Of a stretch of 64,000 bases of DNA, positions 28,593 to 62,170 are shown piece after piece. Each line of letters starts with the position of its first letter. The stretch's first letter is position 1. Under the pieces are notes generated by a model. That model worked only from the letters and a program-made list of their open reading frames with translations, searched no databases and was not told where the DNA came from. The position numbers and the translations under genes were made by a program. This stretch comes from Pararhizobium qamdonense (GTDB lineage Bacteria; Pseudomonadota; Alphaproteobacteria; Rhizobiales; Rhizobiaceae), in NCBI RefSeq assembly GCF_029277445.1, contig NZ_CP119566.1, positions 961,001-1,025,000 on the forward strand. Reading direction: 5' to 3'.

Positions 28593-28608
28593 TGTAGCCT
28601 TTTGTATC
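28593..28608 (-). promoter_or_regulatory. GATACA-type tandem site upstream of the MsrA-like frame
   Basis: Read on the minus strand, GATACA is followed after 4 bases by GCTACA (4 of 6 matching), a 10-bp period as at other sites in the window. It lies about 200 bases upstream of the frame at 28395. The remainder of 28396-28723 holds no supported gene. Confidence 0.45.
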
Positions 28609-28723
28609 ATGCGCGACTGCGCTGTCGGCTGAATGATTATTCGTGATTCAAGGCGATCACGATGCATCCGCGGACGTAGAGAAACAGCTTCGACGAACAG
28701 GTTCTGCGACGGTAAATCTGCGG

Positions 28724-29953
28724 TCAGAGCTTTGCCGCAGTTTTACGGGGTGAATGTCCCTGAGAGATGTCTTTAAGTGGGCTTCCGGAACGTGGTCGTA
28801 TAGCAGGCGCAACGAACGATGCGGCTGCCACGAGGGCGAGTACGATATACATGGCATTCCGGAGGCCGGACACCTCACCGACCAGACCGAGGAGAGGAGG
28901 GCCGACAAGAAACGCGACGTAGCCCGCCACGGCGACGAGTTTGACACGTTGCGCTCCGTTAGGACCCGTGTCCGCAGCCGCTGATAACGCTACTGGAAAT
29001 CCAAGAGAGGCACCGAGTCCCCAGAGGATCACTGCCACCGACGCGGATAAAACGCCAGTTCCAAGGATTATCGTGGTGATCCCGATCGAAGCCACGATAG
29101 CGCTGGCTCCAAGGGTGGCTGATCTGCCGAAGCGTCGCAGCACAATGCCGCCGCCAAAACGCCCTACAGTCATCGCTGTTGCAAACCCCAGGTACACGAC
29201 CGAACCCGACGTGGCGCTGAACCCGTAATCGTCTACCATCAGAAGGGGTAACCAGTCGTTTGCAGATCCCTCGGCCAAGGCCATGGCAAGGACTATGAAT
29301 CCGATCGCGAGGACCGTCGGTTCCTTCCACAGCGATGACGGGACATCCGGATTCCGGTCGTGGGAATGGTTGCTCGGAAACGACGTCAGGACGCTTGGTA
29401 TGCTACCGATGAAGTAAATGATCAAAGCACCGCAGAAAACCGCGATCGCTATCATGTGCCACGCGACCGGAAACGAAACGAGGTTGAGGCCAGTTCCTAT
29501 CAGCGCTCCGCAGACGGTGCCAAGGCTGAAAAATCCGTGCAGGGAATGGAGAAGATGGGTGCCCGTCAGGCGCTCGAGGTCAGCCCCGTCCATGTTGATC
29601 GCGATCTCCGAAATTCCCATCCCGAAGCCGAAAGAGGCGAGGCCAAGAGCGACGAGCAAGGCTGAGGAGAGCCCTTCTCCCGCGGCCACGCCTATCATTG
29701 CCGCGACGATAAACCAAAGGCCTGCGGCCATCACCGTCTTTGTGCCGAACCTGTCGACAAACGCGCCGGCGGCGAGGATACCGATCATCGATCCCATAGA
29801 AAGTCCAAACAGGATCGACCCCATTTCGGCGATGGAAACGCCTAGACTGTCACGGATTGACGGAGTTCTGGTCACCCAGGATGCCATGGATATGCCCGGC
29901 ACAAAAAAGAAGGCAAAAAGCGCCAAGCGCCTCTTTCGTGTTGCAAGGTCCAT
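28724..29953 (-). CDS. MFS transporter, YbjJ-like (409 aa)
   Basis: Twelve-helix major-facilitator permease. The signature between helices 2 and 3 reads GAFVDRFGTKTV, and the second half repeats it near VLRRFGRSAT. It resembles the YbjJ/fucose-type group. No substrate can be assigned. The start at 29953 begins MDLATRKRRLALFAF. It is divergent from a TetR gene with 90 bases between starts, holding a TGTACA-based operator; the repressor probably controls this exporter or importer. Confidence 0.88.
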   Translation of the reverse strand: MDLATRKRRLALFAFFFVPGISMASWVTRTPSIRDSLGVSIAEMGSILFGLSMGSMIGILAAGAFVDRFGTKTVMAAGLWFIVAAMIGVAAGEGLSSALLVALGLASFGFGMGISEIAINMDGADLERLTGTHLLHSLHGFFSLGTVCGALIGTGLNLVSFPVAWHMIAIAVFCGALIIYFIGSIPSVLTSFPSNHSHDRNPDVPSSLWKEPTVLAIGFIVLAMALAEGSANDWLPLLMVDDYGFSATSGSVVYLGFATAMTVGRFGGGIVLRRFGRSATLGASAIVASIGITTIILGTGVLSASVAVILWGLGASLGFPVALSAAADTGPNGAQRVKLVAVAGYVAFLVGPPLLGLVGEVSGLRNAMYIVLALVAAASFVAPAIRPRSGSPLKDISQGHSPRKTAAKL

Positions 29954-29994
29954 GGATTTCCCTCTTATTCTCAGCCGCTGTTATTCGTCCGTTA

Positions 29995-30008
29995 TGTACA
30001 TTTGTACA
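29995..30008. promoter_or_regulatory. Candidate operator in the MFS/TetR divergent promoter
   Basis: Two TGTACA hexamers separated by TT (TGTACATTTGTACA), each itself a palindrome, 36 bases upstream of the TetR start and 42 bases upstream of the MFS start. Confidence 0.5.
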
Positions 30009-30043
30009 CATTGCAGTCAAGTTGGAGAAGGGAAGTTTTTCAA

Positions 30044-30589
30044 GTGGTGGCAACAGCTAAACGGAGGCACGACCCTGATCGGAAGGACCGCATCATCGAA
30101 GCGACCCTGGAGGTTATCGCGGTCCACGGCGTCTCGGGTACGACTCACCGCCGCGTAGCGGAGGCGGCCGACGTGCCTCTGGGCTCGATGACGTATCACT
30201 TTGCTGGCATAGATGATCTGGTTCAACAGGCGTTCAGCAAGCTAACGGCCGAGATCGCCGTGCAGTTTGATGCGGTGCTCGGCAACGCCAGGACCGTCGA
30301 CGATGCCCGAGAAACCGTTGTCGGAATAATCTGCGACGGTTTCCTGAACGATCGGCACACGACGCTTGCGCTCGAATTGTACGCTTACGTGGCTAGGGTG
30401 CCCGATGCGCGGAGGCTGACGACGGACTGGATGGCGGAGTGCCGCAAAGCACTGGAGCGCCATTTCACTCCAGAAATAGCCATCGGGCTGGATGCATTGA
30501 TCGAAGGGGCCTCTCTCCACAATTACATGAACCCGGGCCTTGTCGGCGCCGATGCGGTACGTTCCATGGTCGCCAGGCTCACGACTTAG
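30044..30589 (+). CDS. TetR-family repressor divergent from an MFS transporter (181 aa)
   Basis: TetR family: DNA-binding domain RKDRIIEATLEVIAVHGVSGTTHRRVAEAADVPLGSMTYHFAGIDDLVQQAF is standard, and the rest is helical. The ATG at 30002 would place the start inside the operator, so I use the GTG at 30044 (GTG 30047 is equally possible), with GGAAG upstream. Expected to repress the divergent MFS gene and itself. Ligand unknown. Confidence 0.85.
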   Translation: MVATAKRRHDPDRKDRIIEATLEVIAVHGVSGTTHRRVAEAADVPLGSMTYHFAGIDDLVQQAFSKLTAEIAVQFDAVLGNARTVDDARETVVGIICDGFLNDRHTTLALELYAYVARVPDARRLTTDWMAECRKALERHFTPEIAIGLDALIEGASLHNYMNPGLVGADAVRSMVARLTT

Positions 30590-30680: not shown

Positions 30681-31316
30681 TCACTTGCGGGGAGCCGGCG
30701 CGTTGCCCGCGAATTCCGGTATCGCTTCAAGCTTGCTAAAGACGTCTTCGATGTTTGGCCAGCGGGAGAGGTCGAAGCCAAGGCGTTTAACGCCGACTGC
30801 CTGCGGGAAGAGAAATATGTCGGCGACGCTCAGAAGATCCCCTACAGAAAACGTTCCGCAGCGATTGGCGACCAGAAGCTTTTCCACGGCGTCAAAGCCT
30901 TGGCTCACCCAGTGGCGGTTCCAGTCTGTGGTCGTCTCCGAATTCGCACCGAATGCCGCTGCCAGTTGCAAGGCCACCCTCGGAGGCAAGAGCGCGTGGA
31001 TTTCGGAAGCGATAGCCATCGCGATGGATCTGGCCACGGCGCGCTCGATGGCTCCGCCGGGAAGGAGGGGCGGCTCCGGCTGTATTTCATCCAGATACTC
31101 GATGATCGCGAGCGACTGTGTGATGAGAACTCCGCTGTCGAGTTCGAGTGCCGGGACCAAACCCTGCGGATTGACCTTGCGAAATTCATCCTGACGGCTT
31201 TCAGCGTCAGCGCCAAGGATGCCAACGGATTGAGACACCACTTCCAACCGCTTCAACGCAATTGCAATCCGTACACGAGACGCCGCAGACGAAATTTCGT
31301 TCAAGTAGAGTTTCAT
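30681..31316 (-). CDS. Glutathione S-transferase, maleylacetoacetate isomerase type (211 aa)
   Basis: Glutathione transferase of the zeta class. It begins MKLYLNEISSAASRVRIAIALK, with the S-S-x-x-x-R-V-R motif of maleylacetoacetate isomerases; glutathione contacts follow in NPQGLVPALELDSG and TQSLAIIEYLDE. The C-terminal helical domain contains SVADIFLFPQAV. This zeta class often isomerises maleylacetoacetate in tyrosine breakdown but here stands with an Ohr gene, so a role in electrophile detoxification is as likely. It is on the minus strand 19 bases after the small secreted protein and 249 bases after Ohr, possibly one transcript. Confidence 0.88.
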   Translation of the reverse strand: MKLYLNEISSAASRVRIAIALKRLEVVSQSVGILGADAESRQDEFRKVNPQGLVPALELDSGVLITQSLAIIEYLDEIQPEPPLLPGGAIERAVARSIAMAIASEIHALLPPRVALQLAAAFGANSETTTDWNRHWVSQGFDAVEKLLVANRCGTFSVGDLLSVADIFLFPQAVGVKRLGFDLSRWPNIEDVFSKLEAIPEFAGNAPAPRK

Positions 31317-31565: not shown

Positions 31566-31982
31566 TTAGACGAGGTTCAGTTCGACGTTGATGTTGCCGC
31601 GGCTCGCTTTCGAGTAGGGGCAGGTTTGATGTGCTTCTTCGACCAGCACCCTGGCGAGCTCGGGATCGATGTCGGGGATACTGACGTTAAGGCGGGCCTG
31701 AAGCAGAAACGCTCCGTCGGTAACTCCGAGGTCGACTTCGGCATCGACGGAGGTGGAAGACGGGAGTGCAACCTTGCGCTTGCCTGCGGCGATGCCGAGC
31801 GCCCCGATGAAGCATGCCGACCAGCCTGCGGCGAACAGCTGCTCGGGATTGGTGCCCGCACGACCACTGCCCGGCGGTGAGAGCTTGATGTCGAGCGCGC
31901 GGTCATCGCTCTGTGCCGAACCTTCGCGACCGCCCGTGGTGTGCGTCTTGCCCGTGTAAAGGACCTTGTCGATCTTTGTCAT
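31566..31982 (-). CDS. ohr: Organic hydroperoxide resistance protein, OsmC/Ohr family (138 aa)
   Basis: Thiol peroxidase that reduces organic and lipid hydroperoxides with a reactive-cysteine pair. Both cysteines are in their motifs: GWSACFIGALGI (peroxidatic) and EEAHQTCPYSKASRG (resolving). It begins MTKIDKVLYTGKTHTTGGREG, the Ohr start, and the length is typical. AAGGAGTG precedes the ATG at 31982; the ATG further upstream (32048) lacks a site. The upstream gap (31983-32145) holds no MarR-type OhrR gene, so its regulation is not the usual paired one. The small secreted protein and glutathione transferase follow on the same strand. Confidence 0.93.
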   Translation of the reverse strand: MTKIDKVLYTGKTHTTGGREGSAQSDDRALDIKLSPPGSGRAGTNPEQLFAAGWSACFIGALGIAAGKRKVALPSSTSVDAEVDLGVTDGAFLLQARLNVSIPDIDPELARVLVEEAHQTCPYSKASRGNINVELNLV

Positions 31983-32145
31983 TGGACACTCCTTCATTAA
32001 ACCGCCTGGCGCGGTGTTCCTTGACAAGGAGAGTAGTGTGATCCTCAAGTATCCGGCATGTTTCCTCTTAGGGCCGTTTTTGTAACGAAGAGTGTTCGGT
32101 CAACGCTGGTACACGATGCAGTACACGCCTAGCTCTACGCACTGG

Positions 32146-33468
32146 CTACCTGATCGTCACCTCCGCTGCGAGCCCGCCATTCTCTCGGTTGTAAAGCCGG
32201 ATGGTGCCGCCTAGTGCCGCCGTCAGCTGCTGGGCGATAGCTAGGCCAAGCCCTGATCCACCTGTCTCCCTGTTTCGGGAGCTCTCAAGTCGGAAGAACG
32301 GCTGCATCGCCGCTTCGATTTGATCATCCGGGATGCCGGGACCGCCGTCCATAACGGTTATCGATATCGCTCCCCCTACGGTCCGTTCGACAAGCACTTC
32401 GGCGACTTCTCCGAACTTTATCGCGTTATCTATGAGGTTTGTCAGAATCCGACGAAGCGCGTGTGGCTTCGTAGTCGCGGTGCCGCTGATCATGCCGATC
32501 ACGGAGACGGGTTTGCCAATGTCCTGATAGTCGTAGCAGATACTCTCTATGAACGAGGTCAAATCTATCCTGGAGAACTTTTCACCGCTGCTATGCGAGC
32601 TTCGGGAATAGGCGATACCGTCCTGAACAAGGCGTTCCAGCTCTCCCAGATCGTGCAGGAGCTTGATTTTTTCAGGGGTGTCGTCGGCCAGGTCGGCGCG
32701 AAGTCTCATTCGCGTGATCGGCGTCTGAAGGTCGTGCGAAATGGCCGCGAGGATTTGAACCCGCTCCTCGAGGTAGTGCGCGATCCGGTCGCGCATTGCG
32801 TTGAAAGCTCTTGCCGCATGCGCGACTTCGCTCGGTCCAGTGACACTGAGAGCTGGTCCGCTGATGTTCGGATCAAGTGCGTCGGCGGCGGCGGCGAGTT
32901 CCGCCAGCGGGCGGGTGGCTTGCCTCACCGCTAGCCAGGCAAGGAGAGAGATCAGTATCATCTGCAGGACAAAGACATATGGCAGCCACGCTGCCAGAGG
33001 CATGACGTTCTTGGGAGTTATATCGATGGTCAGGGGACTGCCGTCGGTAAGTGTGAGATGTGCCTGTAGCCTCTGAACTTCTCCGGGTATCGCCTCCATC
33101 CTGATCGGGAAGCGATGGCCGATCGCGTCGCTGATCGTATCGGCGATCTCCGCGCCTCGGACTGTTTTGTCGGGAACGCCCTGTTGGCCTGGCCCGAGGA
33201 CGAAACGATAGTTTCCCCGGCTGAGCGGATCAGTGAGGTCTGCCCGCTGGTCAGCCGGGAGGCGGTCAAGAACGGCGATCGACGTTGCGACATCGCTTTC
33301 GAGCGTCCCCAACATTACCGCCTTGGCGCTCACGTACCGCTCCACGTAAAGAACGGAGAAAGAGAGGCCATACGCCACTGCGAGACCAAGTACCAATATG
33401 AGGAGCATGCGGGATCTGAGGCTGCTCGGCCAAATTCCAAGCGGAACGAAGCGATCTACAGCCATCAT
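32146..33468 (-). CDS. Sensor histidine kinase, OmpR-type partner (440 aa)
   Basis: Membrane sensor kinase. Two helices (about 20-44 and 160-182) enclose a periplasmic domain of about 115 residues; a HAMP-type linker follows, then the phosphoacceptor His245 in AAISHDLQTPITRMRLR. The ATPase domain has NLIDNAIKFGE, DGGPGIPDD and GGSGLGLAIAQQL. It overlaps the regulator stop by four bases (ATGA at 33465), so the two are translated together and form a pair. The divergent DipZ gene suggests the pair answers an envelope redox signal. The catalytic half is paralogous to the kinase at 50090. Confidence 0.92.
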   Translation of the reverse strand: MMAVDRFVPLGIWPSSLRSRMLLILVLGLAVAYGLSFSVLYVERYVSAKAVMLGTLESDVATSIAVLDRLPADQRADLTDPLSRGNYRFVLGPGQQGVPDKTVRGAEIADTISDAIGHRFPIRMEAIPGEVQRLQAHLTLTDGSPLTIDITPKNVMPLAAWLPYVFVLQMILISLLAWLAVRQATRPLAELAAAADALDPNISGPALSVTGPSEVAHAARAFNAMRDRIAHYLEERVQILAAISHDLQTPITRMRLRADLADDTPEKIKLLHDLGELERLVQDGIAYSRSSHSSGEKFSRIDLTSFIESICYDYQDIGKPVSVIGMISGTATTKPHALRRILTNLIDNAIKFGEVAEVLVERTVGGAISITVMDGGPGIPDDQIEAAMQPFFRLESSRNRETGGSGLGLAIAQQLTAALGGTIRLYNRENGGLAAEVTIR

Positions 33469-34205
33469 TGACGCTGCTCCGAAATTTCGATCGGCACGGA
33501 GAAGACATATCCCTCGCTACGGACCGTCTTGATATAGCTCGGCTCACGCGCGTCGTCCCCAAGACGCTGGCGGAGCCGGCTTACCAGCAGATCAATGGAT
33601 CTATCGAAGATCTCGGCGTCGCGACCTTGAGTGAGATTCAAGAGCTGGTCGCGGTTCAGGACACGCTGTGGATGATCGATAAACACCCGCAGAAGCCGAA
33701 ACTCCGCGCCGCTGAGGGCTATCGTTGTTCCGGCCCTGTCGAGGAGATGACGCGCCACCGTGTCGAGCCTCCACTCTCCGAAACTGACGATCTGTCCGGC
33801 TTCCGTAACCTGGAAATTCGGTGGAAGCATGCGCGTCCGCCGGAGAACGGATTTGATCCGGGCGAGAAGTTCACGGGCTGCGAATGGCTTTGGGACATAG
33901 TCGTCAGCACCCATCTCTAGTCCGAGGATACGGTCCATTTCGTCGCTGCGAGCGGTCAGCATCAAGATCGGTGTCGCCTTGTGCTTTCCGGAGCGCAATT
34001 CGCGGCACAGAATCAGCCCGTCGTCTCCCGGCATCATCAAGTCTAGCACGATGAGATCGACCGTGTTCGCGTCGAGGAATTGGCGCATCTGCCGACCGTC
34101 CGCGGCAACGGATGCACGAAGGCCGTTCTTTTTGAGATATCCTGAAACCAGCTCCCGGATTTCGCTGTCGTCATCGACAATCAAGATATGATCGACATGA
34201 TCCAA
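33465..34205 (-). CDS. OmpR-family response regulator (246 aa)
   Basis: Receiver domain with acidic pocket DDD at 11-13 and phosphoacceptor Asp55 (IVLDLMMPGDDG), followed by the winged helix DNA-binding domain (ALSGAEFRLLRVFIDHPQRVLNRDQLL, then DRSIDLLVSRLRQRLGDD). The partner kinase follows immediately. The first 98 residues are very similar to the truncated regulator at 63706, so the two are recent paralogues. OmpR-type regulators bind tandem half-sites one helical turn apart; the GATACA pair at 34373 lies in its own upstream region, making autoregulation and control of dipZ plausible. Confidence 0.93.
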   Translation of the reverse strand: MDHVDHILIVDDDSEIRELVSGYLKKNGLRASVAADGRQMRQFLDANTVDLIVLDLMMPGDDGLILCRELRSGKHKATPILMLTARSDEMDRILGLEMGADDYVPKPFAARELLARIKSVLRRTRMLPPNFQVTEAGQIVSFGEWRLDTVARHLLDRAGTTIALSGAEFRLLRVFIDHPQRVLNRDQLLNLTQGRDAEIFDRSIDLLVSRLRQRLGDDAREPSYIKTVRSEGYVFSVPIEISEQRQ

Positions 34206-34372: not shown

Positions 34373-34388
34373 GATACAGTGTGATACA
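34373..34388 (+). promoter_or_regulatory. Tandem GATACA site between dipZ and the two-component genes
   Basis: Two perfect GATACA hexamers, 10 bp apart (TTGATACAGTGTGATACAA), 192 bases upstream of dipZ and 168 bases upstream of the regulator. Also in this 374-base gap (34206-34579), at 34309-34325 on the minus strand, GACATA and GATACA lie 11 bp apart. No gene is present in the gap. Confidence 0.55.
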
Positions 34389-34579: not shown

Positions 34580-36340
34580 ATGACGCTTCTTGTAATTGCC
34601 TATCTAGGGGGTGTGCTGACGATCTTCAGTCCTTGCATACTTCCGATCCTTCCCTTTGTATTCGCGAGGGCAGGACAGCCCTTTGCGCGCAGTACGCTTC
34701 CGATGCTGGCGGGCATGGCTGCGACGTTTGCTCTCGTCGCTACACTGGCGGCAGTCGGCGGCAGCTGGGCCGTGCACGCCAACGAGTACGGTCGGATCGC
34801 CGCGCTGGTTTTGCTTGGGCTCTTTGGCGTCAGTCTCCTTTCAACGCGTATCGCGACACGTCTGACTCAGCCCGTGGTAAATTTTGCAAATAGGCTTTTG
34901 AGCGCCTCGGGCGGCGGGATCGCTACGCCCACGGTTGCCAGCTCGCTGGTTCTCGGGATTGCCACGGGCTTGCTATGGGCCCCGTGTGCCGGCCCCATCC
35001 TCGGCCTCGTCCTCACGGGAGCGGCTCTCCAGGGCGCGAACATCGAGACGACGTTCTTGCTGCTTGCCTATGCTGCGGGCGCGGCGACCTCGCTTGCAGC
35101 CGCCCTGTCTGTTGGCGGAAAGCTGTTCGCAAGGATGAAAAAATCGCTCGGTGTCAGCGAGAAGGTTCGTCAGGCTCTGGGCGCAGCAGTTCTCGCTGGA
35201 GTAATCGCGATCGCTTCCGGCGTGGACACGGGTTTACTGGCCAGATTCTCGTACGCGAGCACCGCCTCGTTCGAACAGGCTGTGCTGGACAAGCTCAAAA
35301 CCGGACCCGGTGCGGTGTCGGCGACCGACGACGCTTCTTTGGAAGTCGCAAGCGCGGGACCGTTCAAGAGCGATCTGCCGATCGAAGGAAACGCGCCATC
35401 CCTCGACGGTGCGGTGGAATGGCTGAATACTGCCCCTCTTTCGGATGAACAGCTCCGGGGGAAAGTCGTTCTGGTCGATTTCTGGACCTACTCTTGCATC
35501 AACTGTATCCGAACCATTCCCTACGTGAGGGCTTGGGCAGAGAAGTACAAGGATAAAGGCCTCGTCGTGATCGGGGTCCACGCGCCGGAATTCGCCTTCG
35601 AGAAGAATATCGACAATGTACGTAAGGCCGTCGGGGACTTTCAGATCGGCTACCCGGTTGCCATCGACAATGATTACACCATCTGGCGAGCCTTCCAGAA
35701 TAACTATTGGCCCGCCCACTACCTCATCGATGCGAGCGGCAAGGTTCGCTATACCCATTTCGGCGAGGGGAACTATCGCCAGACCGAGAAAGCGATCCAG
35801 GACCTTCTCCACGAAGCCGGGGACCAGGCCGCGGACGCCACCCCAGCCACACCTGTGGCAAACGGGGCCGAAGTCGGTGCCGATCTGCAGCATCTCCGTT
35901 CTGGCGAGACATATGTCGGATACAAGCAAGCGTCCAATTTCGTATCGCCTGGCGGTTTGAAGCCGGACATTTCTCAGGAATACGCCGCAGGCGACCCGGG
36001 ACTAAACGAATGGGGTCTTTCGGGACGATGGACCGTCGGTGCGGAGGCCGCGAGCCTCGACGCGGCAGACGGTGGTGTCACATACCGCTTCAATGCCCGC
36101 GACCTGCACCTTGTGCTTGGTCCGGGCGAGGACGGCAGACCAGTTCGTTTCCAGGTCTTGGTCGACGGGAAAGAGCCCGGGCCCAGCCATGGAACAGACA
36201 CCGACGCACAGGGCAACGGGACCATTACCTCAACCAAGCTCTACCAACTCGTACGGCAAGCAGGGGATGTCGAAGCCAGGACATTCGATATCCGATTCCT
36301 AGACCCCGGTGCTAAGGCGTATGCGTTCACATTCGGCTAA
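34580..36340 (+). CDS. dipZ: DipZ: DsbD-like membrane part fused to thioredoxin and C-terminal domain (586 aa)
   Basis: Carries electrons across the inner membrane to periplasmic disulphides. Residues 1-225 form the CcdA/DsbD-type membrane part with Cys19 (SPCILP) and Cys136 (APCAGP). Residues 265-425 are a thioredoxin-like periplasmic domain, with CINC at 306-309 (FWTYSCINCIRTIPY). The last 150 residues form a beta-rich, carbohydrate-binding-module-like domain (GLSGRWTVGAE, then HLVLGP). This is the DipZ architecture of bacteria. The start follows GAGGAAAG. It is divergent from the two-component pair, with a GATACA tandem site between, so regulation by that pair is a natural inference. Its substrates may include oxidised periplasmic proteins and the exported MsrA. 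Confidence 0.92.
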   Translation: MTLLVIAYLGGVLTIFSPCILPILPFVFARAGQPFARSTLPMLAGMAATFALVATLAAVGGSWAVHANEYGRIAALVLLGLFGVSLLSTRIATRLTQPVVNFANRLLSASGGGIATPTVASSLVLGIATGLLWAPCAGPILGLVLTGAALQGANIETTFLLLAYAAGAATSLAAALSVGGKLFARMKKSLGVSEKVRQALGAAVLAGVIAIASGVDTGLLARFSYASTASFEQAVLDKLKTGPGAVSATDDASLEVASAGPFKSDLPIEGNAPSLDGAVEWLNTAPLSDEQLRGKVVLVDFWTYSCINCIRTIPYVRAWAEKYKDKGLVVIGVHAPEFAFEKNIDNVRKAVGDFQIGYPVAIDNDYTIWRAFQNNYWPAHYLIDASGKVRYTHFGEGNYRQTEKAIQDLLHEAGDQAADATPATPVANGAEVGADLQHLRSGETYVGYKQASNFVSPGGLKPDISQEYAAGDPGLNEWGLSGRWTVGAEAASLDAADGGVTYRFNARDLHLVLGPGEDGRPVRFQVLVDGKEPGPSHGTDTDAQGNGTITSTKLYQLVRQAGDVEARTFDIRFLDPGAKAYAFTFG

Positions 36341-37448: not shown

Positions 37449-38924
37449 CTATTCGGCGGCGTCGGTGACTGGGTTCGGCGTGGACTTGGCCCGATGAATT
37501 CGCGCGACAGCCTCGGCGATCCCTGCGCCGTAAGCCGGGTCCGCTTTCGCGCAGTTGTCGATATGGCGCTGGATAGTGCGCTCCGTCGCCCCATAGATCG
37601 AGCGGGCCGTGTTGTCGAACAGCACCTGCTGCTGAGTAGCCGACATCAGGCGGAAAAGGTTTCCCGGTTGGGAATAGTAGTCGTTGTCGGCGCGGTGATC
37701 CCAACGCGCGGCTGCCCCGTCGACCTTGAGCGGAGGCTCGGAAAAATCCGGTTGCGCGTTCCACTCTCCGTAGCTGTTGGGCTCGTAAGCAAGCCTGCGG
37801 CCGCCGTTTCCATCGACGCGCATCGCTCCGTCACGATGGTAGCTGTGGAACGGGCACCTTGGAGCGTTTACGGGGATCTGCGAGTAGTTCACGCCGAGAC
37901 GGTGCCGCTGCGTATCTCCATATGAGAAGAGGCGGCCTTGCAGCAGCTTGTCGGGGGAGAAGCCGATGCCCGGTACGATCGAGCTGGGTGAAAACGCCGC
38001 TTGCTCGATTTCGGCAAAGAAGTTTTCAGGATTTCGATCGAGTTCGATCTCGCCGACTTCGATGAGAGGGTAATCAGACTTAGGCCATACCTTTGTGATG
38101 TCGAATGCGTTGATGTGATAGCTATTTGCATCCTCCTCCGGCATGACCTGGATGAAGAGTGTCCACCTTGGGAAATTTCCTTCCTCTATGTTGTCGAAGA
38201 GATCACGCTGGCTGCTTTCCCGGTCCCGCCCGATAAGATCGGTTGCCTGCTCATCCGTCAGGTTCTCGATCCCCTGCTGGGTGCGGAAATGGAACTTGAC
38301 CCAGTAGCGCTTGTTTTCGGCGCTGATGAAGCTGTACGTGTGACTGCCGAAACCATGCATGTGCCGCCAGCTTCTCGGAATGCCGCGGTCGCTCATCACG
38401 ATGGTGATCTGGTGGAGGGCTTCGGGAAGACTTGTCCAATAGTCCCAGTTGTTCTCGGCGCTCCGCATTCCCGTACGCGGATCACGCTTGACCGCGTGGT
38501 TCAGGTCGGGAAACTTGAGGGGATCGCGGATGAAGAAAATTGGGGTGTTATTCCCGACGAGATCCCAGTTTCCTTCCTCGGTGTAGAACTTCATTGCGAA
38601 GCCCCGGATATCGCGTTCGGCATCGGCCGCTCCGCGTTCGCCTGCGACGGTAGAAAAGCGGACCATCATCTCGGTGGATTTGCCGACCTCGGAAAATAGC
38701 TTCGCTCGCGTGTATCGCGTGATGTCGTGTGTAACGGTAAACCTGCCGAACGCGCCGGCCCCTTTGGCATGCATGCGGCGTTCTGGGATTACCTCGCGGT
38801 CGAAGTGGGCGAGTTTTTCGAGAAACCAGACATCCTGCAGGAGGGCAGGCCCTCGGGGGCCTGCCGTAATGGTGTTGTTGTCGTCTACGACGGGTGCGCC
38901 GAAAGAGGTCGTGAGTTTGTTCAT
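37449..38924 (-). CDS. katA: Haem catalase, small-subunit clade (491 aa)
   Basis: Monofunctional haem catalase that dismutates hydrogen peroxide. The active-site His lies in [12 protein letters not shown], Asn in [12 protein letters not shown], and the haem-ligand Tyr in [14 protein letters not shown]. The length and the absence of a flavodoxin-like extension place it in the small-subunit group. I use the ATG at 38924 (MNKLTTS); the ATG three codons earlier is equally possible and the frame reaches back to 39002. It has no signal peptide, so it acts in the cytoplasm. Two GATACA-type sites lie upstream, at 39030 and 39171. Confidence 0.92.
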
Positions 38925-39029
38925 CGCTGCCATCCGGAAATGAGAAAACGGCCGCGGGGCCGACCGGGCTGGACACAGCGCGGTAAGAGTAAAATAATCC
39001 ATAAGTATCAGTAGTTTAAAGATATTTTT

Positions 39030-39045
39030 GGTATCTTACTGTACC
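39030..39045 (-). promoter_or_regulatory. GATACA-type tandem site close to the catalase start
   Basis: On the minus strand GGTACA, 4 bases, GATACC: both hexamers match GATACA at five of six positions with the 10-bp period. It lies about 100 bases upstream of the catalase start. Confidence 0.45.
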
Positions 39046-39170: not shown

Positions 39171-39185
39171 TGTATCGTCTGTATC
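39171..39185 (-). promoter_or_regulatory. Two perfect GATACA hexamers, 9-bp period
   Basis: On the minus strand GATACA, 3 bases, GATACA, 247 bases upstream of the catalase start and just past the ABC-F stop. The spacing is one base shorter than at the other sites. No gene lies in 38934-39232. Confidence 0.45.
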
Positions 39186-47014: not shown

Positions 47015-47096
47015 GTTTCACTCCTGCCGCGAAATGGACTTCTCGCGGCAGGTTCGACTTTGTTTGTATCTCCAGGATTTCGTGATGAGGCCTTTT

Positions 47097-49712: not shown

Positions 49713-50089
49713 GATTACATTTGAAACGATACGCCAAAACTCTGACATTTGGGTAAAATATGCAGATGGTTTTATCAGCATAACGGAGGAATAAGAAAAT
49801 CCGTAGGGGATCGACCGAAATCATAGGGTCTTTGCTAGCATTTCGTCAGCAACGACCTTCGGATACATTTCGATTTCCTGCTGAGCAGTAGATTATCAAT
49901 CGATACGTATGAATTTAGACTTCGTGATCGTTTTTCTACATCTTATTTTTGATGTTCGTCAGGTTCAATCCTGGAAATCTGGAGGCGGTGGCGTGCGGGA
50001 ATGCTCAGACGTTTTGAGGCAGTTCGTGTTGCGCTGCGGTTCGGATCGCAGAACGAGGATCAATTGGCTGTCTGATGGCGGAGGGACCG
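49713..50089. other. 377-base gap without a gene
   Basis: Upstream region of the sensor kinase. A single GATACA lies at 49862, followed at 10-bp distance by GATTTC (partial match). Nothing else identified. Confidence 0.4.
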
Positions 50090-51214
50090 ATGTCAGTCGT
50101 TAAAGAAGATTATTGGAGTTCTGACACTCAGGAGCTATCCGGCTCCGCCGACCTCCAGGCGCTGTCGATCAGCTCGGCATGGATGCGTACGGGCCGGGCG
50201 CGTCGACCTTTAGGCCAGGCTGCAAATAGTTCGAATCATATCCGCCGCGTCCTTCTCGGACTCTTTCCAAGCTCGGTGCGGTCGCGGCTTTTCCTGGCAC
50301 CCATCGCGGGACCGGTGGTCGCCTACGGGGTCCTGCTGGCTCTAGGAGACGTTACTGCTCCCCAGTGGACTCTGGGTACGTTCGCGCTGGCGACAGGACT
50401 AGGCTTGGTGATATCGGCAATTGTCGTCCGACAATTGCTGCAGCCGCTCGCCGAGCTCGTGGCGGCGGCGAACAGGCTTGGAATAAACAGTGGGATTGAG
50501 AGACTTCCGGAGACGGGCCCGAGCGAGGCTTGCAACGCTGCCAGAGCGTTCAACGCCATGTCGGAACGGGTGAACCGTCAGGTCGAGGAGCGCATTCGCC
50601 TCCTAACCGCTTTCTCCCACGATATGCAGACTCCCATCACGCGCATGCGGCTAAGGGTCGAGCTGGCCGAACATTTCCCGGAGCGCGAGAAACTGCTTCG
50701 CGATCTGGGCGAGGCGGAAAGGCTTGTAAGGGACGGAATTGCCTATGCCCGAAACTCTCACGTCGTTCGCGAGTCCGACACCCCGGTAGACCTTTGCGCC
50801 TTCATCGAAAGCATTGTGTTTGATTATCAGGACACTGGAAGAGACGTCTTCATCGTAGGCAGCATTCAGGGTATACGCGCTGTAAAGCCTGCGGCGCTGC
50901 GCCGGGTTCTGTCGAATTTCATCGACAACGCTCTCAAGTTCGCCGGTGCAGCACAGATATCGGTCACCCGGGATGTAAACGGCAGAGTTAGCATCGCCGT
51001 TATGGATCGGGGTCCCGGCATCGATCCTCAGAAGCTTGATGCAGTTGTGAAGCCGTTCGTGAGACTCCAGCAGTGCAACGGAGAGCACGCTCCCGGCGTT
51101 GGATTGGGTCTCGCTATCGCGCAGCAGCTGGCGCGGGAGATGAACGCTTCTCTTGTCCTCGAAAACAGGCTCGGCGGCGGGTTGTCCGCACAGATTGTTT
51201 TCGCCGCCAGGTGA
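50090..51214 (+). CDS. Sensor histidine kinase lacking a periplasmic domain (374 aa)
   Basis: OmpR-type sensor kinase paralogous to the one at 32146: the catalytic half matches, with phosphoacceptor His177 in TAFSHDMQTPITRMRLRVEL, then NFIDNALKFAG and GVGLGLAIAQQL. The N-terminal 60 residues are polar, and two helices (about 65-85 and 95-115) are joined by only about ten residues, so no periplasmic sensor domain exists. No regulator gene is adjacent. The start at 50090 follows GGCGGAGGG; 50075 is less good. The DUF3095 gene lies 153 bases downstream on the same strand. A membrane or cytoplasmic signal is implied. Confidence 0.9.
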   Translation: MSVVKEDYWSSDTQELSGSADLQALSISSAWMRTGRARRPLGQAANSSNHIRRVLLGLFPSSVRSRLFLAPIAGPVVAYGVLLALGDVTAPQWTLGTFALATGLGLVISAIVVRQLLQPLAELVAAANRLGINSGIERLPETGPSEACNAARAFNAMSERVNRQVEERIRLLTAFSHDMQTPITRMRLRVELAEHFPEREKLLRDLGEAERLVRDGIAYARNSHVVRESDTPVDLCAFIESIVFDYQDTGRDVFIVGSIQGIRAVKPAALRRVLSNFIDNALKFAGAAQISVTRDVNGRVSIAVMDRGPGIDPQKLDAVVKPFVRLQQCNGEHAPGVGLGLAIAQQLAREMNASLVLENRLGGGLSAQIVFAAR

Positions 51215-53874: not shown

Positions 53875-56424
53875 CTATTGAGCGTTGTCCGCGCCTTGCA
53901 CCAGCGCCTCTGTGGCTTTGGCGATGATCTGGTTATAGAGGGACGTCGCTAAACTGTTTGAACTGATTGGTTTTTTGAGGACAGAGATGCCTCTGGGCGA
54001 CCGAATATCGGGCACGGCCATTTCCGGGTCGATCAGAAAAACGGTTGGCACCGGGGCAAACTGGTCTATCAAAGCGAGACAATCCGGGGGCGAGGGCCAG
54101 ACGTCCAGGTCGAGCAATATCAGATCCGGACTGATGGCTTTACCCTCGATCCAAGTCACCAGCGGCGCGATCGAGGAAAAGCCGATCGGTTCGTAGCCAA
54201 GCGCCGCGATCTTCTCTTCGAGAAGCAGCCTGAGAGAGCTGTCCTGCTGAGCGATCAAAACGATCTGACCTGTCCCTAGTGGCAACGTTCGCTCGTTGAA
54301 AAACTCCTTCAGGGGGATGGGCTTCCGGTACGATACCGGGAAGTAGAGGTCAAAACGGGTTCCAAGCCCGACCTGGCTTTTTACGTCGATCTTGCCATTC
54401 ATTCCCGCGACGTGACCATGCACGGCAGCAAGGCCAAGACCTGTTCCGCCACGTTTCGATCTTGTGGTAAAAAAGGGCTCGAAAATGTTGGATAATATGC
54501 TCTCGGGTATTCCGGACCCACGGTCCTCGACCGACACGCGAACGAACCCGCCCGGCATGAGTTCACCGTGAGACAGTGAAACACGCGCCTTTTCCACGAC
54601 GTGCGCTACCGATACGTCGATCAGACTGTCTTCATCCGACGCATGCGCTGCATTGGTGCAGAGATTAATGACGACCTGCTGGATCTCTATGGGGTTTCCG
54701 AGTATCGGAGGAATATCGTCACCGAGTTGAAGTTTCACGTTGTGACTGCCGGAGATGGACATGCGTACCATCGGCATTATTTCGCGTATCGCTTCGGAAA
54801 CGTCGAATGGCCTGCTGACCCTCTCTCTTTTTCGGCCAAACGTCAGAATCTGGTCTATGATGAATTTCGCCCGATGACCGCTCGAGACCATTTCCTCGAC
54901 GTATTTCCTTGTGTTCGGAGAGTTTGGGTCGAGTTGGAGCGCCATTTCGCCGTACCCGAGAATGGCCCCAAGAGTGTTGTTGAACTCGTGGGCGATACCC
55001 CCAGCCAACGTGCCAAGGGCCTCCAGACGTTGGGCATGGTCGAGCCGCGCTTCCAGGGTTTCGCGCTCGTCTTTTTCCCGCTTTTCTTTGAGACAAGTCG
55101 CCAGCGCTACGATGGCCTGCCCGAGAAGACGAACCTCATCGTGAGTGGGCTTCTTACGAATCTCGCTGTGCTCGAGGAAAAGCAAGGCGACGGAATTACC
55201 GCCGATTTCAGCGGAGACCACGGATCCAGCACTCAAAGAGCCTTCCGGAAAATGATCTAGGTCTTTTTGCTGGAGGTTTTCGTAGTAGAACGGCTTCCAA
55301 GGCGCTAAAGCGCCTTGCCTGACCAGCAGGATTTTTTTTCGCATCATATCGCACAGCGCTTCGAAGCTGCTGTGACTGCTTTGCCCGAACGTCGCTTCCG
55401 TCGCTCCGTTGTCGCTATCCAGTATGGCAAAGGCATGCCGGCTCGCATCGAAAAACTGCGCCAGCATTGCCAATGAGTCGGTAAGCGCGGCGTTCGTTTT
55501 GTCCCGCCCCTCGGTGAAACGCCGCTGAATGTCCGCGATCAGAGATTCGACATCCAACTGCTGTGTCAACTTGAGAGTCTGCTGTCTCAATCTGTAGATA
55601 AGCGATGCTACATATACGCAGAGCAAAATCGCTATCGAGCCGAGGAGGGCCCTGCTCCAGGACGACCGAACGCTCTGTTCGCCATATGCATCCAGGTAGA
55701 CCACCTGAAGGCGGCGAGCGTCTTCCGATGTCTGTGATGCCTGTATCTCGTAGATAATCCGATCGACGGCGGGGAGCGTGTTGAGGATCATTTTGGCGTG
55801 AACGACATACGCCCTCACATCGGGCATGAGACCATGATCAGATTTCAGCATCCCGTCGAGTTGCGCTCTTATGTCCTCCGCGAGCGGAAGTGCGGGTTGA
55901 AGGGCGAACCGCATCATAAGATTGCCGAGGTCGTTTGGAGTGTCGATCGACCGCATTTCGGGCGCGGCCGCTCCGTGCAGCTTGCTCAGCATCTGGTTGG
56001 CGATTGAAAGCGAGTTCTGCAACAGTGCGTTCTTGGTCTTGAATTCCTCAACAAGCTCTTCATCGCGGTCTATGGAAGACGAAAGTTTGGATAGTTCGTC
56101 AGATAGGGCGGATGGTGTTTCGACGCCGCTTTCAGGAAATAACATACCCAATCGAGAAACCGTCGCGTGGAGAGTTCGAATGGGTGTGACCAAGGGGTCG
56201 AAATTTCTGAGCAGACCAGCCCGGGCTTGTAGCACGTCTCTCTGGAGCGATGCATGGTTGACGTCCACCGCACGAAGAGACGTCAGGATAGCCTCATGGA
56301 TTTCTCTCGACGGCACCCGACCAAACGCGAACACCGCGAAGGAAAACGCCCCCGCGACAAGGATCATTATCCTCCATAGTTCAATCGCGCCGCGTCGGGG
56401 CGGTCGTACCGAGTTTGCTTCCAT
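53875..56424 (-). CDS. VirA-like hybrid sensor histidine kinase (849 aa)
   Basis: Membrane hybrid kinase with the layout of Agrobacterium VirA: helix 1 (about 18-36), a periplasmic all-helical domain to about 255, helix 2 (about 259-277), a cytoplasmic linker that looks GAF-like (325-445), His479 in LGTLAGGIAHEFNNTLGAILG, an ATPase domain (GGTGLGLAAVHGHVAG), and a C-terminal receiver with KIAALGYEPIGFSS and LKKPISS. Several of these stretches are near-identical in pattern to VirA (IIDQILTFGRKRERV). It overlaps the di-heme peroxidase by 44 bases and is the last gene of a three-gene operon with a VirG-like regulator. No vir genes accompany it. Confidence 0.88.
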   Translation of the reverse strand: MEANSVRPPRRGAIELWRIMILVAGAFSFAVFAFGRVPSREIHEAILTSLRAVDVNHASLQRDVLQARAGLLRNFDPLVTPIRTLHATVSRLGMLFPESGVETPSALSDELSKLSSSIDRDEELVEEFKTKNALLQNSLSIANQMLSKLHGAAAPEMRSIDTPNDLGNLMMRFALQPALPLAEDIRAQLDGMLKSDHGLMPDVRAYVVHAKMILNTLPAVDRIIYEIQASQTSEDARRLQVVYLDAYGEQSVRSSWSRALLGSIAILLCVYVASLIYRLRQQTLKLTQQLDVESLIADIQRRFTEGRDKTNAALTDSLAMLAQFFDASRHAFAILDSDNGATEATFGQSSHSSFEALCDMMRKKILLVRQGALAPWKPFYYENLQQKDLDHFPEGSLSAGSVVSAEIGGNSVALLFLEHSEIRKKPTHDEVRLLGQAIVALATCLKEKREKDERETLEARLDHAQRLEALGTLAGGIAHEFNNTLGAILGYGEMALQLDPNSPNTRKYVEEMVSSGHRAKFIIDQILTFGRKRERVSRPFDVSEAIREIMPMVRMSISGSHNVKLQLGDDIPPILGNPIEIQQVVINLCTNAAHASDEDSLIDVSVAHVVEKARVSLSHGELMPGGFVRVSVEDRGSGIPESILSNIFEPFFTTRSKRGGTGLGLAAVHGHVAGMNGKIDVKSQVGLGTRFDLYFPVSYRKPIPLKEFFNERTLPLGTGQIVLIAQQDSSLRLLLEEKIAALGYEPIGFSSIAPLVTWIEGKAISPDLILLDLDVWPSPPDCLALIDQFAPVPTVFLIDPEMAVPDIRSPRGISVLKKPISSNSLATSLYNQIIAKATEALVQGADNAQ

Positions 56425-57421
56425 TGTATTCGCCCGTTAGGGTTTCCAGAAACGCTACCAGCTCGTCTATTTCGTATCGCGTAAGACTGCGTCCCAGCTG
56501 GCTTGTCCCCATCACTTCTACAGCCTGTTCAAGCGTCGATGCGCGTCCGTCGTGAAAATATGGCCCCGTTACCGCGACGTTTCTGAGACTTGGGACACGG
56601 AAGACACCTTTGTCGCTTTCCCTGGCGGTGAGCTTGAAGCGACCGACATCGCCGTCGCCAGCTGCAAACGTCCCCGGCGGTTCCGTAAAGATCCCGAAAC
56701 GCTGAAACATGTTGCCGCCGACGTTCGCCCCCTGATGACAGGATGCGCAGCCGTAATCCTTGAACAACTGGTAACCCTGCAGCTGCCTACTGCTGAGGGC
56801 ATTTGTGTCGCCGTTCAGGTATCGATCCAATGCCGACTCAGGTGTCACCAGAGACCGCTGGTAGGTGGACAAAGCATCCAAAACAGACTTCCGGTCTGGC
56901 GGGTGACCGTAGACCCGGTCAAACGATGCGGAATAAGTCGCACTCTGTTCTAGCCGCATGATCAACGTCGGCCAAGTCATCCCCATCAATTCCTGGTCCA
57001 ACAGAATTTTTTCGGTCTGGCTTTCCAAAGATGTAAGACCTCCACGCCAGCCTAATCGGTAATTGCTCCCAACGTTGAAAACCGTTGGAGTGTTGAACAG
57101 GTACGCTTTGCCCGTCTGGCCCAAAGGACGCGGTATATGAACGGTTCCGCCTGTAGATAGATCGTGACAGGTCACGCAAGATCTATCCTTTCTAAGAGAA
57201 AGCAGGCTGTCGGAGAACAGCTGGCCGCCGAGGAGCACGACCTGCGGGTCAAGGGACGGTAGCGGCTGGAGCGGAGCGAGCGGCTCACGGCCATCGACCT
57301 CTTTTACCTCGCTTGAAGCCCCGCAATCTGCCGACAAAAGCAAAGTTGCAAAAAAAAGCGTAATGTAGCGAACTGTCCACCGTAGATGAGGCGGCCTATA
57401 GATCGGCTCGCGTCCAGTCAA
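56381..57421 (-). CDS. Di-heme cytochrome c peroxidase/MauG-type protein (346 aa)
   Basis: Exported protein (hydrophobic signal about residues 16-30) with two c-haem motifs, CVTCH at 82-86 and CASCH at 225-229. The segments TPTVFNVGSNYRLGWRGG, VPSLRNVAVTGPYFHDGRASTLEQAVEVM and LGRSLTRYEIDELVAFLETL are characteristic of bacterial di-haem cytochrome c peroxidases and MauG. It reduces peroxide with electrons from a small cytochrome, or oxidises a protein partner. It overlaps the regulator stop by four bases and runs into the VirA-like kinase, so it sits inside the signalling operon, an unusual place for a peroxidase. Confidence 0.9.
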   Translation of the reverse strand: MTGREPIYRPPHLRWTVRYITLFFATLLLSADCGASSEVKEVDGREPLAPLQPLPSLDPQVVLLGGQLFSDSLLSLRKDRSCVTCHDLSTGGTVHIPRPLGQTGKAYLFNTPTVFNVGSNYRLGWRGGLTSLESQTEKILLDQELMGMTWPTLIMRLEQSATYSASFDRVYGHPPDRKSVLDALSTYQRSLVTPESALDRYLNGDTNALSSRQLQGYQLFKDYGCASCHQGANVGGNMFQRFGIFTEPPGTFAAGDGDVGRFKLTARESDKGVFRVPSLRNVAVTGPYFHDGRASTLEQAVEVMGTSQLGRSLTRYEIDELVAFLETLTGEYNGSKLGTTAPTRRD

Positions 57422-58140
57422 CCTGAGCGCTTTCGCTCATCGACAGAAACGTCCATGTCGAAGATGTAGCCCGCCCCGCGTTCGGTCAGGATCATTGTCG
57501 GATTCGAAGGATCGAGCTCGAGTTTTCTTCTAAGGCGCAATATCAGCACATCGATGCTGCGGTCGAAAATCTCCTCGTCGTGTACCCGGCTTGCGGCCAG
57601 AAGTTGTTCGCGGGAGAGGACTTGCTTTGGCGTGTCGAGCAAAGCGGTCAACAGGTTGAATTCCGCTGCGGTAAGTTTGACTTCTTCCGATCCACCGCGC
57701 ACCAGCTGGCGTCTCTTAACGTTCAGCTCCCAGCTGGCGAACGAGTAAACCTTGTGATCGCGGCGCTCGGGAATCTGCGGTCGCATCCGCAGATTGGCCC
57801 TTACGCGGGCAAGAAATTCTCTCATGCCGAAAGGTTTGGTCATGTAGTCGGCCGCCCCGAGCTCCAGCCCCACTACCTTGTCGGTTTCTTCCAACCGGTC
57901 GCCGCTAATGATGATAATAGGTGTGTCGGATTTCGAGGAAAGCGTCCGCACGATTTCCAGACCGTCTTCATGCCCAAGGTTTAGATCGACGACTACCAGA
58001 TCGACATTCTCAACCGCGAGTATCTGCGCAAGTTGGTAGCTGTCCTTGGCTCCGCTGGCGCGAAATGCGTGTTGCGACAGGTAATCGATCAGAAGTGCCC
58101 GCAGCTTGTTGTCATCGTCGATTATCAGAATGTGTTTCAC
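57418..58140 (-). CDS. VirG-like OmpR-family response regulator (240 aa)
   Basis: Receiver with DDD at 8-10 and phosphoacceptor Asp52 in VDLVVVDLNLGHEDG, then PIIIISGDRLEETDKVVGLELGA and TKPFGMREFLARV (Lys102), and a winged helix (VKLTAAEFNLLTALLDTPKQVLSREQLL). The run of matches with VirG, including DxxK spacing and RSIDVLILRLRRKLE, is long. The GTG at 58140 is used because VKHILIIDDD aligns with VirG; an ATG-started extension of 44 residues looks like leader. GGCGG precedes the GTG. Its stop overlaps the peroxidase start, and the cognate kinase is the VirA-like gene. A GATACA-type tandem lies about 190 bases upstream. Confidence 0.9.
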   Translation of the reverse strand: MKHILIIDDDNKLRALLIDYLSQHAFRASGAKDSYQLAQILAVENVDLVVVDLNLGHEDGLEIVRTLSSKSDTPIIIISGDRLEETDKVVGLELGAADYMTKPFGMREFLARVRANLRMRPQIPERRDHKVYSFASWELNVKRRQLVRGGSEEVKLTAAEFNLLTALLDTPKQVLSREQLLAASRVHDEEIFDRSIDVLILRLRRKLELDPSNPTMILTERGAGYIFDMDVSVDERKRSG

Positions 58141-58331
58141 GTGCTGTCCGCCGCCGCCGTTGTTCTGTGCACCCGCCTGATCTTGAACTGAGCTCGCTTC
58201 TTCCGCCGGGAGGGCGCAACACCCAATCATGCGCGGAAAACAGCTCGGCCAACCGATCATCGGCGTACGCACGCGCCAGCACGTTTATGACAGTCTGTTT
58301 GTATCTCGCATGTTTTCGGAACGCCGATTTT

Positions 58332-58347
58332 TGTATTTTATTGTATC
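58332..58347 (-). promoter_or_regulatory. GATACA-type tandem site upstream of the VirG-like regulator
   Basis: On the minus strand GATACA, 4 bases, AATACA, a 10-bp period with one mismatch. A single GATACA (minus) also lies at 58300-58305. Confidence 0.5.
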
Positions 58348-61280: not shown

Positions 61281-61629
61281 TTCTTCAATCTCCTATCGAA
61301 CGTGGATAAAGGTCGCGCGCAGGTGTCCCTAGACGTCTGCCTCCGGCTCGCTACGTTTGCCGAAGCGGCGCTCCTTTGCCGAACGAGATCATAGGCTTCA
61401 CGTATCGGCAGTGTGTCGACGCGTCAGGGAAATTGTATCGCAGTCATTCCGCAGAGACCGCTACGTTCTCTCCCCACGCCATTTATTTCGGGCACGCGCG
61501 CGTCGAGTTGATCTCGCGCCGACTACAAAGACTTACAAATATGGGTAGTGCCCGACACACCTGCGAAGCATTCGGCTACTCAAATGCGGCGTCCGATTTG
61601 GACGACTATGTTAAACTGAGGATGATGTC
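61281..61629. other. 349-base gap between msrA and the cupin gene
   Basis: Divergent promoter region. It has single TGTATC at 61434 (GATACA on the minus strand) with a weak partner at 10-bp distance. No gene is supported. Confidence 0.4.
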
Positions 61630-62025
61630 ATGACTTCAAAAATCTTTGGCCTGGCCATGTTGCTGGGCAGCGCCTTGGCTACCTTCAACGTTGCCCACGC
61701 TGACCAATCCCTGACGCGGACCGATCTCGTGAAAAGTGATATCGACGTGCCGGGCCACGAGGTCGTGCAGGTCCGCGTGGATTTCCCGTCGGGGTTTCTC
61801 GCTGCCCGCCACTCGCACCCCGGCGAGGAAATCGCCTTCGTTATCGAGGGTACCCTCGAATACAAACTGGACGGCAGGCCCGCTGTGACGCTTCACGCCG
61901 GGCAGGCGTTGTTCATACCGACGGGCGTTGCGCACTCGGCAGAAAATGTCGGCAAGGACAAAGCCTCGGAACTGGCCACCTACATTGTTCGTAAGGGCGA
62001 AAAGCTCGTCGTTCCCGCGAAATAG
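61630..62025 (+). CDS. Secreted cupin-domain protein (131 aa)
   Basis: Signal peptide residues 1-24 (cleavage near AHA-D). The mature part is one cupin barrel: HSHPGEEIAFVIEGTLEYKLDGRP (metal-binding His-x-His and Glu) and ALFIPTGVAHSAENVG with the second His. All metal ligands of a mononuclear cupin are present. Function not determined; secreted single-cupin proteins often bind or oxidise small substrates. GAGGATG lies close before the ATG. A strong terminator follows. It is upstream of the Tat-exported hydrolase. Confidence 0.86.
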   Translation: MTSKIFGLAMLLGSALATFNVAHADQSLTRTDLVKSDIDVPGHEVVQVRVDFPSGFLAARHSHPGEEIAFVIEGTLEYKLDGRPAVTLHAGQALFIPTGVAHSAENVGKDKASELATYIVRKGEKLVVPAK

Positions 62026-62056
62026 CCGCTCCGGCTGCTATCAGCATCGCGAAATC

Positions 62057-62092
62057 AAAGCTCGGAGACGCGCACTGGCTCCGAGCTTTTTT
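62057..62092 (+). terminator. Rho-independent terminator of the cupin gene
   Basis: AAAGCTCGGAG / CTCCGAGCTTT, an 11-bp perfect stem with an 11-base loop, followed by six T. Confidence 0.92.
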
Positions 62093-62154
62093 GTGCAATC
62101 TCGGCGACGTCGGTGCACGTATCATAGACCCATTAAGCGTCCTCACTCAACCAC

Positions 62155-62170
62155 TGTATCTCACTGTATC
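62155..62170 (-). promoter_or_regulatory. Perfect GATACA tandem site upstream of the Tat-exported hydrolase
   Basis: TGTATC, 4 bases, TGTATC on the plus strand, so GATACA, 4 bases, GATACA on the minus strand, 10-bp period. It lies 104-119 bases before the hydrolase start. A single GATACA on the plus strand follows at 62227. Confidence 0.55.

Follow-up and report, generated by a model that had tools for sequence, protein, structure and literature searches.

A tandem GATACA site as the probable operator of an OmpR-family two-component regulator in Pararhizobium qamdonense and other proteobacteria

The DNA analyzed here, hereafter the window, is a stretch of 64,000 nucleotides from the Pararhizobium qamdonense genome (NZ_CP119566.1, positions 961,001 to 1,025,000) which contains several copies of a short tandem site, GATACA-N4-GATACA or, on the opposite strand, TGTATC-N4-TGTATC. 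Comparison of the site with the regulators encoded next to it suggests, with a probability of about 0.82, that it is the operator of RR1, an OmpR-family response regulator, and probably also of the RR1 paralogue RR3. The genes on which this proposal turns are the following (positions are those of the window):

33465..34205, minus strand, RR1, OmpR-family response regulator (PF00072, 104.9 bits; PF00486, 78.8 bits)
32146..33468, minus strand, HK1, sensor kinase with HATPase_c and HAMP domains and a HisKA match slightly under the cut-off
31566..32048, minus strand, Ohr-family peroxiredoxin, downstream of HK1 (TIGR03561, 157.7 bits against a cut-off of 88.85)
30681..31316, minus strand, GST-fold protein (195.3 bits with the maleylacetoacetate isomerase model, against a cut-off of 171.05), in the same direction as RR1-HK1-Ohr
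34580..36340, plus strand, DipZ-like protein, thioredoxin-like with a C-terminal Thioredoxin_10 domain and an N-terminal DsbD_TM match under the cut-off
62274..63317, plus strand, alpha/beta hydrolase with a Tat-like signal, judged by eye
63706..64000, plus strand, start of RR3 (75% identical to RR1), which runs on to about 64431, past the window end
57418..58272, minus strand, RR2, VirG-like regulator and probable target (VirG model, 379.6 bits against a cut-off of 344)

Clustering of the tandem site in the window

The window contains exactly three perfect pairs, at 34373, 48937 and 62155, and three pairs with one mismatch each, at 28593, 47097 and 58332; all six had been picked out by the first-pass annotation, together with a two-mismatch pair at 39030 and a pair with 9-bp spacing at 39171, which are likewise present. 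If all bases are taken as equally frequent, its figure of about 0.008 perfect pairs expected by chance is correct (2 x 64000 / 4^12 = 0.0076). With dinucleotide-preserving shuffles of the window as the chance model, the mean was 0.00 perfect pairs compared to three observed, and 0.06 pairs with at most one mismatch compared to six observed. Furthermore, every one of the three perfect pairs of the entire genome (6,242,368 bases) lies inside the window, and the reversed control pattern has no match. When one mismatch is allowed, the genome contains 10 sites (seven beyond the perfect ones), 6 of which fall within the 1% of the genome represented by the window (binomial P about 2e-10, somewhat overstated because the window was not blindly chosen). 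Thus, the possibility that the pair is equally common elsewhere is not borne out by the whole-genome scan. At up to two mismatches, a setting used to look for further regulon members elsewhere in the genome, the total of 123 (63 and 60) is near background, with 109 (54 and 55) for the reversed control, and no such regulon is proposed.

A scoring matrix was derived from 73 distinct sites, all from other genomes, and was used to scan the window with 40 kb flanks (104 kb). The six highest-scoring matches are all in the window:

34373..34388, minus strand, perfect site (TGTATCACACTGTATC) between RR1 (minus) and dipZ (plus); score 30.2, the best in 104 kb
62155..62170, plus strand, perfect site located 103 bp upstream of the alpha/beta hydrolase gene, at a position comparable to that in orthologues; score 22.4
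58332..58347, plus strand, one-mismatch site before the VirG-like/MauG/VirA-like gene group; score 21.5
47097..47112, plus strand, one-mismatch site upstream of the cytochrome P460 gene, at a distance of about 83 bp; score 21.0
48937..48952, minus strand, perfect site between poxB (minus) and a TetR-family gene (plus); score 20.7
28593..28608, plus strand, one-mismatch site; score 14.9

The best score after these is 12.5, and random sequence yields 0.25 matches above 14 and about 1.35 matches above 10 per 104 kb. From the 113 sites outside the window with at most two mismatches, 22 were scored: the four one-mismatch sites reach 0.7 to 14.3 and the 18 two-mismatch sites at most 7.7. The 28593 site is thus barely separated from the one-mismatch sites outside, the best of which scores 14.3. 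This best outside site, at C1:3453548 (L009:1501-1516), has one mismatch and is located about 33 bp before an open reading frame (ORF) of 238 residues in which no Pfam match was found; a gene for a ROS/MUCR-type regulator is close by. We do not claim this site for the regulon.

Co-occurrence of the site with RR1 relatives

The best 80 of 588 relatives retrieved with RR1 were taken as loci, 51 of them with a relative at least 63% identical (L062-L112) and 29 with a more distant one. A site with at most one mismatch is present in 49 of the 51 close-relative loci, all except L106 and L109, compared to a single locus (L120) among the 29 distant ones; the control pattern is found in none of the 80. 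Among 26 further loci from genomes of the family, which were covered with 1.5 kb flanks only, 19 contain the site. The organisms with RR1-relative loci include Rhizobium, Ensifer, Mesorhizobium, Pseudomonas, Ralstonia, Lysobacter, Paraburkholderia, Dyella, Lelliottia, Cedecea, and Enterobacter, and a protein search with RR1 retrieved an Agrobacterium relative at about 85% identity. The spacing of the half-sites is highly uniform: exact direct pairs in the 51 loci comprise 40 at 10 bp, 1 at 11 bp, and one each at 22, 31, 37, and 38 bp. These are direct repeats with the period of one helical turn, as is characteristic of sites of the OmpR/PhoB family, to which RR1 belongs by its receiver and winged-helix Trans_reg_C domains.

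Of the 42 perfect sites found across 297 genomes of the family, 16 have an RR1 relative no more than 20 kb away and 26 do not. The 16 include the window's own three and three beside relatives with 52-55% identity. Where the RR1 relative is at least 75% identical, in 27 genomes (own genome included), a perfect site lies within 20 kb of it in 11. The reversed control has 15 matches in the 297 genomes, so that more than half of the 26 sites away from RR1 relatives may be due to chance. In three instances, L171 (G052), G174:C14, and G220:C15, a gene for a regulator 52-55% identical to RR1 has a perfect site about 70-120 bp upstream.

Conserved targets

In 21 of 26 rhizobial loci (L062-L087), the gene order is dipZ, an intergenic stretch bearing the site, the hydrolase gene, RR1, and HK1, and 13 of these 21 have a second site on the opposite strand, closer to dipZ. 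Of these 26 loci, 22 also contain an Ohr-family gene and 9 a GST gene, mostly directly after HK1. In P. qamdonense, the 34373 site is flanked by RR1-HK1-Ohr-GST and dipZ, and the 62155 site is followed by the hydrolase gene and then by RR3. Alignment of 21 DipZ-hydrolase intergenic regions shows that the site is the best-conserved 16-base block outside the coding edge of DipZ.

To quantify the position of the site, we inspected the 300 bp before each gene in loci L062-L141 and L143-L168, having dropped matches with less than 45% identity, those starting past residue 40, and those with fewer than 150 bases upstream. The site precedes 39 of 41 hydrolase genes and 26 of 31 DipZ genes, two counts which overlap because many loci have one shared intergenic region. 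It is also found before 20 of 94 RR1-like genes, 2 of 76 HK1 genes, 1 of 1 TetR2, and 1 of 3 cupin genes, but before none of 12 RR3-like genes and none of the remaining genes (one to three cases each); the control gave zero throughout. Lysobacter (L098) and Dyella (L108) have a perfect site ahead of the Ohr gene.

The hydrolase gene was surveyed further in the 297 family genomes, using the best 30 of 53 matches, one of which is the window's own. The site, with at most one mismatch, is present before the orthologue in 20 of 23 other genomes with an RR1 relative of at least 80% identity and in none of the 6 genomes without such an RR1 (Fisher P 1.8e-4), where the best upstream match has 4-5 mismatches; one of these six (G248) encodes a 53% RR1 relative. 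In 19 of the 20 positive cases, the site is on the same strand, and the hydrolase match begins 107-137 bp downstream of it. In G071, a perfect site precedes the hydrolase gene 1.87 Mb away from RR1, and in G287 the site and RR1 are on separate contigs, so that the association is not one of mere linkage. Collectively, the RR1-relative, DipZ-hydrolase, and hydrolase loci display the conservation in orthologous promoters which had been suggested as a check of the proposed regulon.

Assignment of the site to a regulator

Three OmpR-family regulators, RR1, RR2, and RR3, are candidates for binding the site. The recognition-helix segment of RR1 (EIFDRSIDLLVSRLRQRL) is near-constant among regulators whose loci carry the site and in RR3 (DIFDRSIDLLVSRLRQRL), from which it differs by one residue at the edge; it is different in RR2 (EIFDRSIDVLILRLRRKL) and in distant regulators (often DRAIDNQVSRLRKKI). 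RR1 falls under the curated cut-offs for OmpR (257.3 bits compared to 331), RstA (183.7 compared to 330), and VirG (200.5 compared to 344), and no BfmR model is found among 25 of the 97 matching families. The comparison supports narrowing the candidates from three to two, RR1 and its paralogue RR3. The initial attribution of the tandem half-sites to regulators of the OmpR/VirG type is supported in its OmpR-family part by the comparative evidence, and is less likely for the VirG-like RR2.

Several observations weigh against assigning the site to RR1 and RR3. By the 300-bp count, the site is located directly upstream of only 20 of 94 RR1-like genes, because many of these sit within an operon, and upstream of none of the genes in the 12 regions that are closer to RR3 than to RR1. 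Nine loci encode an RR1-like helix and have no site, although seven of them were covered with 1.5 kb flanks only. In the hydrolase survey, G149 and G290 lack the site despite the presence of RR1, G212 has it with two mismatches, and the sole site in G278 is on the opposite strand, 87 bp before the match. The relatives of RR1 in different genomes are not independent samples, and the perfect sites next to regulators with 52-55% identity imply that neighbouring subfamilies may share the site. Finally, no site with up to two mismatches was found for relatives of the cytochrome P460 gene (two loci) or of the VirG-like gene (five loci), and the three matches with 1-2 mismatches among 29 other catalase loci all fall within the coding sequence, some 200 bases in. 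With no convincing sites among these relatives, the case for the catalase, P460, and VirG-like targets comes from this genome alone.

Among the alternatives, the one we would consider unlikely rather than improbable is that the sites are used by just one of the two paralogues, RR1 or RR3, the other having diverged in its signal or partner. Consistent with such divergence, no kinase gene adjoins RR3, and HK3, a paralogue of HK1 which lacks the sensor region, is encoded about 12 kb away; yet the near-identity of the two recognition helices and the presence of a perfect site upstream of each gene or gene group argue that both regulators recognize it. It is improbable that the sites are targets of RR2 acting with the VirA-like kinase encoded nearby. 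RR2 is an OmpR-family regulator of the same island, passes the VirG model, and has a site before its gene group, but its relatives (E 1e-60 or better) are present in only 4 of 198 other family genomes, in five loci and at 62% identity at best, with no site at up to two mismatches in any of the five (1.5 kb flanks). Moreover, the site recurs with RR1 in L062-L112, where no separate match to RR2 or MauG appeared, the recognition helix of RR2 is unlike that of RR1, and the vir box differs in sequence from the tandem site. RR2 therefore looks like a target of RR1 rather than the binder.

Slightly less probable still is that the sites belong to another factor travelling with the module, such as a TetR regulator or an ECF sigma factor. 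TetR genes are indeed present in the island, but matches to them are few across lineages, where RR1 and HK1 are the constant regulators; the orientation of the site relative to the downstream gene varies, which is ill-suited to a sigma-factor promoter, and a direct 10-bp repeat is typical of OmpR-family binding in the accessible portions of the reports on RstA (PMC4117788) and BfmR (PMC8025907). Chance or a repeated mobile element can be practically dismissed: short AT-rich words do recur by chance, as the 26 perfect sites away from RR1 relatives illustrate, but the shuffles produced no perfect pair, the site is conserved in orthologous promoters, and its outer flanking positions carry less than 0.25 bits each in the matrix, so that it does not belong to any larger repeat.

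Other sites and neighbouring genes

The remaining candidate sites and the genes around them are listed below.

39030..39045, plus strand, two-mismatch pair before the catalase gene; score 10.2, equal to background
39171..39185, plus strand, two perfect half-sites with 9-bp spacing, upstream of the catalase gene
47065..47070, plus strand, third half-site TGTATC, exactly 32 bp from the 47097 pair
58300..58305, plus strand, third half-site TGTATC, exactly 32 bp from the 58332 pair
37449..39002, minus strand, catalase, a weak candidate for the regulon
46505..47014, minus strand, cytochrome P460
47111..48901, minus strand, PoxB, ubiquinone-dependent pyruvate dehydrogenase (PRK09124, 998 bits against a cut-off of 792)
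49068..49712, plus strand, TetR-family regulator
50075..51214, plus strand, HK3, HK1 paralogue (50.5% identity over 279 residues of the kinase core) without the periplasmic sensor region
53875..56424, minus strand, VirA-like sensor kinase with a DAHL domain, passing the VirA-like model
56381..57421, minus strand, MauG-like di-haem protein

The sites at 39030, 39171, and 28593 are weak or doubtful. The catalase, originally included among the targets, has lost ground, since the 39030 pair scores as background and the 9-bp spacing does not occur among the exact pairs of the 51 RR1-relative loci. Similarly, the MsrA-like gene originally linked to the 28593 site was not found among the ORFs scanned nearby; MsrA is encoded at 60546-61280. 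The 28593 site is upstream of an ORF for a DppA-like binding protein, the conserved part of which begins about 200 codons into that ORF. The sole ORF of at least 100 residues across the site, 28045-28632 (195 residues), has no Pfam match, and a protein search found no homologue except itself; it is probably not a gene.

The 48937 site could serve either poxB or the TetR gene, to judge from its position between them, and the poxB ORF extends by its final 2 bases into the 47097-47112 site. The third half-sites at 47065 and 58300 sit in a common GAGATACAAACA word on the opposite strand, a feature spotted post hoc in two promoters. At 53875-58272, the di-haem MauG-like gene is located between the genes for the VirG-like regulator and the VirA-like DAHL kinase, all in one direction. 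HK3 is followed by a DUF3095 gene (50075-52387), and the same pair adjoins RR1 in Rhizobium cauense (L062). Because it lacks the periplasmic part, HK3 may act on either RR1 or RR3 with no external sensor of its own. RR3 is followed by an epoxide hydrolase gene (EHN domain, L061:853-2151), a 55% relative of which precedes RR1 in two other genomes of the family (L161 and L166).

Discussion

From the presence of the sites, the way they cluster, and their association with RR1 across genomes, we infer binding, activation, and the signal as follows. RR1 and HK1 would form a two-component system in which HK1 phosphorylates RR1 upon a signal at the cell envelope, and an RR1 dimer would occupy the operator WTTGTATC-NNAN-TGTATC in a head-to-tail arrangement, with one half-site for each helical turn, as known for RstA and other OmpR/PhoB relatives. 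RR1 most likely activates its own gene group, RR1-HK1-Ohr-GST, as well as dipZ and the gene for the secreted hydrolase; in this genome, it may additionally act on the P460 gene, poxB or the TetR gene, and the VirG/MauG/VirA-like group, as suggested by their sites. The predicted products suit a defence against peroxides or oxidised thiols at the envelope, because those that recur are an Ohr peroxiredoxin, a DipZ-like membrane thiol carrier, an exported hydrolase and, at two loci elsewhere (L105 and L106), a P460; to these the window adds PoxB, the GST-fold protein, MauG, and the VirA/VirG-like pair. The theme of oxidant defence, recognized at the outset, is accordingly supported and extended by Ohr and DipZ.

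More tentatively, and with the balance of probability against it, the island might represent a layered and self-contained stress circuit. A transferable module of DipZ, hydrolase, RR1, HK1, and Ohr with one operator, common to alpha-, beta-, and gammaproteobacteria, would have been duplicated here, giving rise to the orphan RR3 and the sensor-less HK3, and the operator would have been recruited before the VirG/MauG/VirA-like system, such that an envelope peroxide sensor turns on a second, haem-linked sensor. More generally, a widespread two-component system gains a putative binding site along with a likely function, the thiol chemistry of Ohr and DipZ-type proteins would be tied to envelope signalling, and the operator is simple enough for a reporter test. 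A literature search, mostly limited to openly accessible text, found no description of the regulon or the two-component system.

The type of site, judged by its resemblance to the RstA and BfmR boxes, is already known. In the available part of the reports on BfmRS of P. aeruginosa, the motif obtained for BfmR by chromatin immunoprecipitation sequencing (ChIP-seq) is TACAA-N3-GATACA (PMC8025907) and the footprinted word is GATACAnnGC (PMC4148453). BfmR is likewise an OmpR-type regulator with two TACA words 10 bp apart, although the likeness to RR1 concerns the site and the type of regulator rather than a comparison of protein sequences. Unlike the proposed RR1 regulon with its six sites in one island, the BfmR regulon reported in the same sources is broad (174 ChIP regions, phoB, rhlR), and the BfmR motif is looser in its first half-site. 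The RstA box of enterobacteria, as described in the accessible text, also consists of tandem TACA words at 10 bp (TACATNTNGTTACA) and is bound by a head-to-tail dimer (PMC4117788). RR1 differs from RstA in falling under its cut-off (183.7 bits compared to 330), and the half-site in the present case, GATACA, is conserved in the letters that precede TACA as well.

The DipZ neighbour made DsbRS of P. aeruginosa, a copper-responsive two-component system of dsbDEG according to the accessible part of its descriptions (PMC10141476, PMC13101516), the first lead for the identity of RR1. Like DsbRS, the system proposed here would stand over periplasmic thiol-disulfide genes. A copper-binding Cys in the sensor domain and different half-sites would set DsbRS apart. 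The periplasmic part of HK1 contains no Cys and, since neither feature seems to fit, the identification was not adopted. The final parallel is with ohr genes regulated by OhrR, a MarR-type repressor. The RR1 gene group encodes an Ohr-family peroxiredoxin above the subfamily cut-off (157.7 bits compared to 88.85) but, unlike OhrR-regulated ohr, this ohr gene follows the genes of a two-component system whose operator is a tandem one.

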